Shown: positions 61,836 through 64,000 of the stretch, in pieces
Position numbering within the stretch: the first letter of the stretch is position 1
Layout: each line of letters starts with the position of its first letter
Assembly: GCF_013214815.1 (NCBI RefSeq)
Contig: NZ_JABSPU010000008.1
Location: 1 to 64,000, forward strand
Length of the DNA: 64,000 nucleotides
Origin: Gilvibacter sp.
GTDB taxonomy: Bacteria > Bacteroidota > Bacteroidia > Flavobacteriales > Flavobacteriaceae
Direction: 5' to 3'
Notes under the pieces: generated by a model
Told to the model about the DNA's origin: nothing
Databases searched by the model: none
What the model saw: the letters and a program-made list of their open reading frames with translations, nothing else
Program-made: the position numbers and the translations under genes

Positions 61836-62346
61836 GACCTTTAGTGTTTAAGGGCAGTTCATAACAGTAAAAAGGATGCTCGCTCTGTTTGGGGAAGTAG
61901 ATATTACCCAAACGCTTATATCCACGGGCTTCGTAGAATTTTTGATTCCGATGGTTTTGACTAAAAGTGTCCAACCGAACGGAGGTCACATTATTGATCT
62001 TGGCCAGACCTTCTGCAAAATCCATTAGCGAACGCGCCAAACCTTGTCCTTGGAATTGAGGATGTACCGCCAGGCGATGAATATAGTACTGCTTTGCGTC
62101 TTTGGTTAGCCAATTGACCTCTTGGTATTCTTCATCCTTGAGGGTGGAAATGGTAATGGTTCCCGCAAGTATGTCATCTTGGAATAAAAGGTAGAGTTCT
62201 TTGCGTTTTAAGTCGTTTTCAAAGGCTGCTTTGGAAGGGTAATGTGCGTTCCACTGGTAGATGCCTCGGGAGATCATATCCTGAGCACAAGCCGCTGTGA
62301 GGGCCAGTATTTGCGGTATTTCTTCTTTTTTTGCGAGCCGAATCAT
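61828..62346 (-). CDS. GNAT family N-acetyltransferase
   Basis: 172-residue GNAT protein. The acetyl-CoA loop is 'LAVHPQFQGQGLARSLMDFA' (Q-x-Q-G-L-A), motif B is 'VRLDTFSQNHRNQKFYEARG' and the beginning is 'IRLAKKEEIPQILALTAACA'. The closest known types act on small molecules such as amino acids. Its end overlaps the MATE start by 8 bases, a plausible resistance pair, but the substrate is unknown. The start lies 10 bp from a TAnnTTTG box used by the divergent usp gene. Confidence 0.87.
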   Translation of the reverse strand: MIRLAKKEEIPQILALTAACAQDMISRGIYQWNAHYPSKAAFENDLKRKELYLLFQDDILAGTITISTLKDEEYQEVNWLTKDAKQYYIHRLAVHPQFQGQGLARSLMDFAEGLAKINNVTSVRLDTFSQNHRNQKFYEARGYKRLGNIYFPKQSEHPFYCYELPLNTKGLG

Positions 62347-62356
62347 TAATTCGCAT

Positions 62357-62364
62357 TACTTTTG
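62357..62364 (+). promoter_or_regulatory. Promoter -7 element of the universal stress protein gene (TACTTTTG)
   Basis: TACTTTTG matches TAnnTTTG and ends 28 bp before the ATG at 62393. It makes the longer reading frame starting upstream (62297) unlikely. Confidence 0.6.
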
Positions 62365-62392
62365 TGTAAAGGTAATTAAACCCACCACCAAA

Positions 62393-63187
62393 ATGAAGAA
62401 GATAATCGTACCGGTTGGAAATACCGAAAACGGAATCAACAATTTGAACTATGCTGTAAAGTTTGCTTCCATGAGTGGAGCTACAGTTTACCTAGTAAAT
62501 CTTTACAGAGAGTTCTCTAAAGTTGGGGGGCTTACCAAGGTCAATGAGTTGCTTCATGAAGAGAGTGAAGCGCAGCTGCAAAAGATCATTGATTCTGTGG
62601 ATACAGGAGATGTCGAAGTACTCGCTCGCGCGATTAAAGGCGACCCTTTTGAAGGCATCACACGTATTTCTAATCAGCTGGGTGTTGATCTAATGATCGT
62701 TTCTCCTCAAAGTATTGATATCAAAGACGAAGTCTATCTAGGCAGTATTACTGGAAAGATCATCAAAGAAACAGACATTCCTGTTTTGGTAATTCCACAA
62801 GATTATATTTTTAGAAAGGTTGAGGTGATCCTTATGGCTATTAAAAGCGGAAGGATCGTGAAAGAAGGATTATTGGACCCTCTTAAAGCGATGCTGAATC
62901 TATTCTCGGCTAAACTCAATGTACTTCACGTGATCACTCCAGACACTGATGAGAATGACCTAGAGCACGATGCGGTTTTAAAGGAGCTTGAAAGCAACAC
63001 CAAAACCACAGAAAACGCTACGATTTATCAAGGGGTGTTGGAGCACTTCCAATCCAACAATCCAGACATGCTTTGCGTGATCCGCAGAAAGCGTGGATTC
63101 TTCCAAAAGCTGTGGGAAACCTCAGCGGTTATGAAAAAAGACTTTTACACCAGCAAACCTTTGCTGATCTTAAGCGGACAAGAATAA
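62393..63187 (+). CDS. Universal stress protein with two Usp domains
   Basis: 264 residues. The first Usp domain begins 'KKIIVPVGNTENGINNLNYA' and ends 'GSITGKIIKETDIPVLVIPQ', a G-2x-G-9x-G-like end with a Thr rather than the exact ATP loop. The second starts at 'FRKVEVILMAIKSGRI' and is more divergent. It is typical of flavobacterial tandem Usp proteins, which respond to starvation or oxidative stress. ATP binding is uncertain because the glycine pattern is incomplete. I start it at the ATG at 62393. Downstream, 27 bp away, is tRNA-Ala. Confidence 0.88.
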   Translation: MKKIIVPVGNTENGINNLNYAVKFASMSGATVYLVNLYREFSKVGGLTKVNELLHEESEAQLQKIIDSVDTGDVEVLARAIKGDPFEGITRISNQLGVDLMIVSPQSIDIKDEVYLGSITGKIIKETDIPVLVIPQDYIFRKVEVILMAIKSGRIVKEGLLDPLKAMLNLFSAKLNVLHVITPDTDENDLEHDAVLKELESNTKTTENATIYQGVLEHFQSNNPDMLCVIRRKRGFFQKLWETSAVMKKDFYTSKPLLILSGQE

Positions 63188-63195
63188 AATTTTAC

Positions 63196-63203
63196 TATTT
63201 TTG
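63196..63203 (+). promoter_or_regulatory. Promoter -7 element of tRNA-Ala (TATTTTTG)
   Basis: TATTTTTG matches TAnnTTTG and ends 11 bp before the tRNA 5' end, the same distance as for tRNA-Cys. Confidence 0.6.
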
Positions 63204-63214
63204 CTTCCCACAAT

Positions 63215-63288
63215 GGGGATGTAGCTCAGTTGGCTAGAGCGCTTGACTGGCAGTCAAGAGGTCGTCGGTTCGAATCCGATCTTCTCCA
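63215..63288 (+). tRNA. tRNA-Ala (anticodon GGC)
   Basis: A 74-nt cloverleaf. GGGGATG (63215-63221) faces CTTCTCC (63281-63287) with discriminator A at 63288. It shows the G3-U70 wobble that specifies alanine, and one U6-U67 mismatch. The anticodon stem CTTGA/TCAAG holds GGC at 63249-63251. The T arm GTCGG-TTCGAAT-CCGAT is standard. CCA is not encoded. Confidence 0.95.
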
Positions 63289-63298
63289 CATCAAGCAG

Positions 63299-63330
63299 AA
63301 AATCCACACCAGAAGGTGTGGATTTTTTTA
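63299..63330 (+). terminator. Intrinsic terminator after tRNA-Ala
   Basis: AAAATCCACACC (63299-63310) pairs with GGTGTGGATTTT (63315-63326) around AGAA and runs into a T tract. That T tract is also the left arm of the next, larger hairpin. Confidence 0.88.
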
Positions 63331-63383
63331 TACCGAAAAGCGAGTTGAAAGTTTACTTTCATAAACGCTTGGAGGTATAAAAA
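63325..63383. other. Nested three-stem hairpin of 59 nt
   Basis: The outer arms TTTTTATACC (63325-63334) and GGTATAAAAA (63374-63383), the middle arms AAGCG (63338-63342) and CGCTT (63366-63370), and the inner arms GAAAGT (63347-63352) and ACTTTC (63355-63360) are all exact complements. A further small hairpin CCAACC/GGTTGG (63389-63403) follows. No coding sequence is seen. Confidence 0.6.
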
Positions 63384-63412
63384 ATAAACCAACCGAAGGT
63401 TGGGTTGATTTT

Positions 63413-63720
63413 CTATTTGCATAAGTGTGAGTCATTTCGGAAGATTTGGCGAAGACAAATCAATCCGAAGAGTGCGTGAATGCTCGGAACATTCAACGCT
63501 AGTTGAATGAATCTGGAGGGTGCGAGAATGTTCGGAAGCGCGCAGCGAATCCGCGCATAAACTGCCAGCGCGGCAGTCTGGCCCCTTCGCTAAAAATGTC
63601 TACCAGACATTTTCTAAACGCTCGGTCCTATTTGCAGTAGTGCGAGTCACTTCGGAACATTTTGCTTGCAAAATGAATCCGTGATTGTTCGGAAGATTGA
63701 ACAAAGCCAATTCAATCTGA
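63413..63720. repeat. Array of five hairpin units with constant flanks and variable stems
   Basis: Units begin near 63425, 63472, 63520, 63640 and 63681. Each has a head ending in TCGGAA, an inverted repeat and a tail AATCYG. The arms are GATTTG/CAAATC, CATTCAAC/GTTGAATG, CGC/GCG, CATTTTGC/GCAAAATG and GATTGAA/TTCAATC. Units 1 and 4 share a longer preceding 36-bp copy (63413 and 63628) that is about 85% identical. Between units 3 and 4 lie ACTGCC/GGCAGT (63561-63577) and AAAATGTCT/AGACATTTT. No convincing gene is present, though one forward frame is partly open. Confidence 0.7.
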
Positions 63721-63742
63721 CATCTATGTCCTCTCAAAAACC

Positions 63743-64000
63743 CTAATCCAAACTCAAACCTAGCAACTGCAACATTTCTTTAACCCCCATTTCTTCAATT
63801 TTAGTAGCATTGAAGGTCATGGTGAAGTCATTTGTAACAAGCTGGTATTTAAGATAGGGCCGCTCGGTCATTTTATAGAAATCAGCCAGGTAATACTCCA
63901 CATGATTGCTCAGTAGGCGATAATCGAGCTTGGGAGCATGTTCACTGGCACAGAAATAAACTAGTACTTCTTCACCAGATTTAATGTCTTTGGAATAATA
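63743..64000 (-). CDS. C-terminal end of an unidentified protein
   Basis: The stop codon is TAG (complement at 63743-63745) and the frame remains open to the window edge, giving 85 C-terminal residues. The sequence includes 'YSKDIKSGEEVLVYFCASEH', 'DYRLLSNHVEYYLADFYKMT' and ends 'EMGVKEMLQLLGLSLD'. It looks like a compact alpha+beta cytosolic domain. I do not recognise a family, and the start is outside the window. The hairpin array lies immediately downstream of its stop, so it could act as this gene's 3' region. Confidence 0.65.
   Translation of the reverse strand, partial: YYSKDIKSGEEVLVYFCASEHAPKLDYRLLSNHVEYYLADFYKMTERPYLKYQLVTNDFTMTFNATKIEEMGVKEMLQLLGLSLD

Follow-up and report, generated by a model that had tools for sequence, protein, structure and literature searches.

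The string of hairpins behind a tRNA-Ala gene in this Gilvibacter genome is one case of a genus feature, namely tRNA-specific arrays of dead tRNA ends that are plugged by hairpins. In the window, as we call the whole 64,000-nucleotide stretch of DNA that was analysed, the array comprises five units which, judging from their sequence, are very probably decayed copies of the 3′ portion of the tRNA-Ala gene beside them, with the T-loop replaced by a self-complementary plug. The derivation from tRNA is well supported, being firm for the family and in keeping with the window locus, and the cause of the arrays can be given as a supported guess. An earlier note on this DNA had described the hairpins without recognising the T-arm of the neighbouring tRNA in their constant frame, or that many other arrays, each specific to a tRNA, exist.

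Anatomy of the array downstream of tRNA-Ala

The tRNA-Ala gene (GGC; 63215-63289, plus strand), identified by ARAGORN, Rfam and inspection of the sequence, carries its T-arm at 63264-63280, composed of the stem strand GTCGG (63264-63268), the loop TTCGAAT (63269-63275) and the stem strand CCGAT (63276-63280). Directly 3′ of the tRNA trailer ATCAAGCAG, and likewise on the plus strand, as are all features described below, lies HP1 (63299-63332), a perfect 12-bp hairpin (100% complementary) followed by a T run and therefore terminator-like. The nested hairpin HP2 (63324-63384; 84% complementary) has the tip GAAAG-TTTA-CTTTC, and a core of its type occurs within 200 nt of 14 of the 26 own-genome tRNA genes examined, while HP3 (63389-63403), CCAACC-GAA-GGTTGG, comes after an A run. 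The array had been placed directly after tRNA-Ala; it does lie downstream of that gene, but with these further hairpins in between.

Ahead of unit 1 stands a head, CTATTTGCATAAGTGTGAGTCA (63413-63434), which is 84% identical over 38 nt to a second head, CTATTTGCAGTAGTGCGAGTCAC (63628-63650), and which also occurs at tRNA-Ala loci of other genomes. Unit 1 (63436-63468) reads TTCGGA-A-GATTTGgcgaagaCAAATC-AA-TCCGA, unit 2 (63484-63516) TCGGA-A-CATTCAACgctaGTTGAATG-AA-TCTGG and unit 3 (63532-63553) TCGGA-AG-CGCgcaGCG-AA-TCCG; unit 4 (63652-63681), TCGGA-A-CATTTTGCttGCAAAATG-AA-TCCG, and unit 5 (63688-63720), TTCGGAA-GATTGAA..TTCAATC-TGA, follow the second head, and successive units are spaced by 47, 48, 120 and 37 nt. 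Between units 3 and 4 a multi-hairpin element, termed 'E' (63558-63627; ..TGTCTACCAGACA..), has been inserted, related copies of which are found elsewhere in the own genome (G000 in our numbering) and in the relatives G001, G002 and G003. Kin of this element (..TGTCCACTGGACA.., with variable outer arms) were seen in several tRNA arrays (window 63558-63627, L002, L003, L141 and L152), and also at the position where a T-loop would be expected. The frame TCGGA..TCCGA (or TCTGA) is itself self-pairing, head with tail, which makes a two-storey hairpin; when folded as DNA, units 1, 2 and 4 show an A/AA internal loop between the two storeys, and unit 5 forms the inner stem only.

Three CGGAA..AATCYG frames in the window enclose a flush inner stem of at least 5 bp (6, 8 and 8 bp), compared with 0.01 per window in 100 first-order shuffles; the stem of unit 5 is offset in this frame and scored only 2 in the scan. 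Folded singly as DNA and compared with 200 first-order shuffles, units 1, 2 and 4 were better than all of them, unit 5 was equalled by 2, and unit 3, with its three inner pairs, was equalled by 27 and is not significant alone. The array of five hairpin units at 63436-63720 is accordingly confirmed, with unit 3 weak when taken by itself. In agreement with the earlier note, it is no CRISPR, since the direct repeats are only 65-84% alike and the variable part is self-complementary, in place of a constant repeat with unrelated spacers. Nor are the units simple terminators: by eye, the T run that should follow the G+C-rich hairpin of an intrinsic terminator stands behind none of the five, and HP1 alone fits that description. 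An origin as remnants of one coding gene's tail is not supported, the frame matching the tRNA instead. Among the families of Rfam 15, only the tRNA scored above the gathering threshold in 62900-64000, two others falling below it. A blastn comparison of 62000-64000 with phage records matched 173 records, the best 20 of which cover the tRNA only, and gave no support for a phage origin.

The frame and the upstream tRNA

The T-arm of tRNA-Ala, GTCGG-TTCGAAT-CCGAT, can be laid directly against the units, TCGGA..AATCCGA, so that a unit's tail would represent AAT followed by the 3′ strand of the T-stem, in forward tRNA sequence, and the head would be the strand that pairs with it. In the own genome 33 tRNA genes were found; 30 loci were used, from which 32 distinct tRNA entries were read, and arrays stand behind many of the genes with frames worded like the local tRNA. 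A search for TTCGGAA..AATCYG gave eight own-genome matches, four of them in the present array and the other four, by eye, lacking flush paired arms; the arrays behind other tRNA genes of this genome are differently worded. Framed plugs number 19, 25, 20 and 5 in G000, G001, G002 and G120, against 1.5, 1.2, 1.5 and 1.1 in shuffled sequence, and 0 and 1 in G061 and G076, against 1.2 and 2.6. They occur at 9 of 26 tRNA loci in G000, 12 of 28 in G001, 9 of 24 in G002, 2 of 29 in G120, 0 of 27 in G061 and 1 of 30 in G076.

The 69 framed plugs collected from G000, G001, G002 and G120 yielded, after two were dropped, 67 units with a T-stem reading at 30 tRNA loci. Across these units of four genomes, the tails agreed with their own T-stem at three positions with a match of 0.59, compared with 0.28 for permuted tRNAs (0 of 5000 permutations). 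Loci that are orthologous between G000, G001 and G002 do not count as independent cases, and only the type-level test takes account of this: with one value for each of 13 tRNA types, the match was 0.58 against 0.28 (0 of 20000). The heads, scored per tRNA type in the same way, reached 0.29 against 0.23 (2408 of 20000) and do not follow their own tRNA. A word-count variant of the T-stem test was weaker, with 8 own matches against 2.4 for 6-mers (79 of 20000) and 1029 to 2008 of 20000 for other word choices.

Forward copies of the tRNA 3′ end were sought by comparing each tRNA, as query, at its own locus and at all tRNA loci of the same genome. With the 3′-terminal 26 nt of the own tRNA as query, copies beyond +75 gave z scores of 7.2, 6.4, 5.0 and 5.8 in G000, G001, G002 and G120, and, in other families, of 3.9 in G061 and -1.2 in G076, so that forward copies are enriched downstream in five of the six genomes tested. 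The tRNA 5′ ends, used as query downstream in the six genomes, gave no signal (z -2.0 to 0.6). At the window locus, other matches surpass the forward match to the own tRNA, which ranks 4 of 26 in G000 (2 of 28 in G001 and 4 of 24 in G002 for the tRNA-Ala loci there), and this locus alone would therefore not have proved the derivation from tRNA.

Inverted copies are clear at a few loci and weak genome-wide. For the tRNA body (last 26 nt, from +75) their z scores were 2.4, 1.9, 0.2 and 0.0 in G000, G001, G002 and G120, and 1.2 and 0.6 in G061 and G076. Most of the inverted signal lies in the trailer, and a trailer that is itself an arm of an ordinary terminator produces the same signal in the control genome G076 from +15 (z 6.1, falling to 0.7 from +75); near the tRNA, the inverted signal is confounded by terminator arms. 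At the Asn and Gln loci the inverted copies are plain, and further forward copies there include the trailer and the terminator. An inverted copy between forward ones, the candidate mark of a tandem inversion duplication, is visible at Asn and Gln and weak genome-wide for the tRNA body.

Orthologous tRNA-Ala loci were reached through the upstream gene, which encodes a universal stress protein (PF00582). In G000, G001 and G002 the T-stems GTCGG/CCGAT are accompanied by units with TCGG/TCCG, two of which stand behind tRNA-Ala in G001, and one unit of G002 departs from this wording (TTTGG/CCCGA). In G003, of the same genus, tRNA-Ala reads GTGGG-TTCGA-CTCCC and the units TGGGAG..ACTCCC. The Aureisphaera-like genome G197 has the same head with the full tRNA 3′ end kept, AATCCCATCTTCTCCACATCAAGCA, and in both G197 and G231 the copy retains the complete tRNA 3′ end and the trailer. 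Of 299 genomes in the family, 28 contain the head pattern TATTTGCANNAGTGNG; among the loci scanned (28 numbered loci and two others), those with arrays adjoin tRNA-Val, tRNA-Arg or tRNA-Ala, and many single matches lie in coding-like DNA with no tRNA.

Unit 5 is identical in sequence in G002, as is the inner sequence of unit 3. About 50 kb of other DNA separate tRNA-Ala from the displaced array in that genome, which indicates that the site has been used for integration, and at the front of the displaced array stands a copy of the 3′ portion of the tRNA. An alternative follows this lead and regards the units as scars or decoys of tRNA-targeting integrases, that is, attachment sites displaced as elements entered and left the 3′ end of the tRNA gene and later disrupted by palindromes; it is very improbable, as it leaves unexplained both the matched arms of nearly every unit and the hairpin-closed partial copies found in anticodon or D-arm positions. 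The 50-kb stretch itself, covered by L030 (G002:C1 from 554600) and L092 (G002:C1:604545), resembles an element integrated at a tRNA.

Pairing of the arms and a possible mechanism

The arms had been described as differing between units and yet pairing perfectly. The pairing does outlast changes of the arms, and arms co-vary in related genomes, a failure of which the earlier note had named as a refuting outcome. On the other hand, the arms follow one consensus, most of their variation being close to the tip, and one internal mismatch is present in 15 of 55 plug-like frames. The 8-mer arms GATTTGGC, CATTCAAC, CATTTTGC and GATTGAAC have S-A-T-T-N-N-N-C in common (in this 8-mer reading, unit 1 contains a single G.A mismatch and the loop GAA), and wholesale replacement of arms was rejected in view of this shared base. 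With orthology assigned by position, the arms CATTCAAC of unit 2 are unchanged in three species with the loops GCTA, GCCA (G001) and GTTA (G002), while a CATTTT unit occurs as CATTTTGC, CATTTTTC and CATTTTCT, each with a matching partner. The first tRNA-Met unit carries CATTTTGC in G000 and G002 and CATTTTTTGC in G001, a gain of two bases in each arm. In nine perfect 7-bp units with 3-nt loops, whose complete pairing is due to their selection for perfection, each of the seven inner pairs has changed on both sides in one unit or more. When one internal mismatch was allowed, 40 plug-like frames were perfect and 15 were not, a few of the latter being coding-like noise.

Such pairing could arise by selection on RNA. 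Under this explanation the hairpins would be transcribed past the tRNA terminator, serve as extra terminators, 3′-end stabilisers or decoys of tRNA enzymes, and be maintained by compensatory point mutation. Folded as RNA, the array region is far better than first-order shuffles (z -7.06, 0 of 100), and 471 hairpins were counted in the array set against 147-163 in shuffled sets. Single-mismatch plugs have G.U seven times and A.C once (P 0.07), a lean that suits selection for a fold of the sense strand as well as template switching, and that weakens a reading at the DNA level only, to which the balance over all array hairpins would otherwise point: in 327 distinct hairpins from 107 loci (first 520 nt), 2556 Watson-Crick pairs stand beside 21 G.U and 22 A.C, an equality that speaks against RNA selection. 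Loops are biased as well. Array triloops are GNA in 60 cases and TNC in 11 (P 3e-9; 9 and 10 when shuffled), and closing pairs are C-G in 177 and G-C in 43, a bias that indicates folding of the tRNA-sense strand, be it as RNA or as DNA. This bias speaks for RNA selection, but the loops are unlike those of the HP1 terminators (n=36; G.U 6, A.C 1), where GNA triloops number 0 of 36 against 60 of 327 in array hairpins (P 0.0016). Since HP1 is placed ahead of the array, the two-base gains at tRNA-Met affected both arms together, and Rfam detected only the tRNA above gathering in 62900-64000, selection on RNA is rather unlikely.

We favour the proposal that a tRNA-targeted cassette has left the arrays behind as dead ends and that fold-back copying keeps them paired, which we consider about evenly balanced between right and wrong. 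In a first step, a cassette would target tRNA genes, regenerate the intact tRNA and leave a hairpin-closed broken copy, the units being leftovers or non-autonomous parts of a cassette comparable to the small GIY-YIG genes of relatives. In a second step, the tRNA-sense strand, when single-stranded, would fold back, and intrastrand template switching would copy arm onto arm, as a result of which arms drift between units and stay paired within a unit. In a third step, tandem duplication would multiply the units, with joints in hairpin loops. At L205 (tRNA-Ser of G002) and L182 (tRNA-His of G001), tandem copies were seen by eye to begin anew within the loop of HP2 and to lack the left arm, in agreement with joints at hairpins. 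DNA hairpins with GNA loops are stable. According to PMC8794818, stems can become fixed through template switching, and sites of instantaneous compensatory change are enriched in GNRA and CUUG loops, which are stable both as DNA and as RNA. Loops of the gCTTGc and GNA types are abundant in the arrays. Taken by itself, fold-back copying has a roughly equal prospect of holding, and the base CATT..AATG, common to plugs of different tRNA loci, counts against local copying and is left unexplained by it. The G.U lean of the single-mismatch plugs also weighs against the proposal.

The common CATT..AATG base also speaks for a further explanation, in which a RAYT (Y1) transposase would move REP-like palindromes that happen to settle at targets resembling a T-arm. 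REP families have sub-families with alternative complementary stem residues, as described in PMC3733652, and in G001 a RAYT gene (NF047646; 81.5 bits against a cut-off of 80) is found some 0.7 kb past the array. This gene, for a REP-associated tyrosine transposase (L031 3320-3796, minus strand), has palindromes on its flanks. The explanation is nonetheless quite unlikely: by eye, the units lack the terminal GTAG or CGTC tag that stands next to the stem-loop of REP palindromes (PMC3733652), their tails carry local tRNA sequence, which is unexpected of a dispersed element, and the paired-arm frame occurs in the own genome only here, other loci having frames matched to their own tRNA.

GIY-YIG genes and comparison with known systems

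The earlier note had suggested that similar strings may neighbour GIY-YIG nuclease genes or rRNA/tRNA loci in flavobacteria, which is borne out in part: 7 of 23 small-ORF GIY-YIG loci have a tRNA within about 1.5 kb, but the window locus has no GIY-YIG gene. PF01541 is present in at least 39 of 40 relatives. None of nine large-ORF loci has a tRNA within that distance, a difference that is not significant alone (Fisher P 0.15); if 25-40 tRNA clusters are assumed in 3.3 Mb, 7 of 23 has a chance of 1e-6 to 2e-5. Eleven GIY-YIG/tRNA loci were inspected, namely these seven and four others (L263, L171, which adjoins tRNA-Asn, L108 and L121). A clear partial tRNA copy lies beyond the GIY-YIG gene in seven of them (L233, L245, L249, L254, L256, L263 and L108; scores 44 to 88), all hairpin-closed by eye; no copy was found in L171, L243 and L244, and that of L121 is weak by score. 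In L254 (tRNA-Arg of G015) and L245 (tRNA-Val), another perfect stem has taken the place of the dead copy's anticodon arm, and L265 (tRNA-Thr of G061) shows the same swap, for a perfect palindrome, with no GIY-YIG gene. These swaps follow the logic of the T-arm plugs of the window in another arm. L254 also contains a tandem pair of near-identical GIY-YIG genes.

The window locus has a hairpin-closed partial tRNA copy, with no GIY-YIG gene between it and the intact tRNA; the three PF01541 genes of the own genome lie only on contigs C7, C84 and C1, and the window is on C128. Only one of the GIY-YIG genes detected in the own genome is small (L059, on C7), and it has TATCGAGTG..TATCGAGATAAC hairpins with different stems on both sides and no tRNA within 1.5 kb. 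The missing gene at the window, together with the 3 of 11 GIY-YIG/tRNA loci that have no copy and the weak copy of L121, counts against the cassette proposal, and whether the GIY-YIG genes are linked to the arrays could go either way. Tentatively, and with more doubt, we suggest that a tRNA-directed copying system may operate in Flavobacteriaceae, in which small GIY-YIG nucleases and hairpin ends would repeatedly copy tRNA 3′ ends while the gene is kept intact. Dead copies, with the T-, anticodon- or D-arm swapped for a new self-complementary arm, would fold as single-stranded DNA on the tRNA-sense strand, and long arrays would record this activity.

If these readings are right, the DNA behind tRNA genes in this group preserves a legible history of copying events that took place again and again, with the intact parent beside each array. 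Arm changes would become datable, and single compensatory steps could be tested against fold-back copying on many replicate hairpins. The free-standing GIY-YIG genes of the group would gain a candidate target, and annotators would be warned to take hairpin strings of this kind for fragments of broken tRNAs and neither for CRISPRs nor for new RNA genes. Among the titles and abstract openings listed in a literature search, outside subscription journals and preprints, none gives a description of such arrays.

Several known systems resemble the arrays in part. Attachment sites of integrative elements comprise displaced tRNA 3′ ends, which are likewise partial direct copies downstream of an intact tRNA; in contrast, the copies in the window are multiple and short, and a plug replaces the T-loop. 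The attC site of integrons, a candidate for comparison, has R″ and R′ boxes with an imperfect palindrome. Free-standing homing-type GIY-YIG nuclease genes (PF01541) lie, in relatives, between an intact tRNA and a plugged partial copy, but none is present at the window locus, and their homing on tRNA genes is only putative. REP/BIME sequences with their RAYT are, according to PMC3733652, short extragenic hairpins with constant ends and alternative-stem sub-families that are often grouped; unlike them, the window units bear no GTAG/CGTC tag and take their frame from the adjacent tRNA, with a wording specific to the tRNA of each locus. Template-switch (quasipalindrome) mutation (PMC8794818) is a mutation process rather than an element and serves here as a fit only, the likeness being its prediction that both arms of a hairpin change in concert, several bases at a time included.
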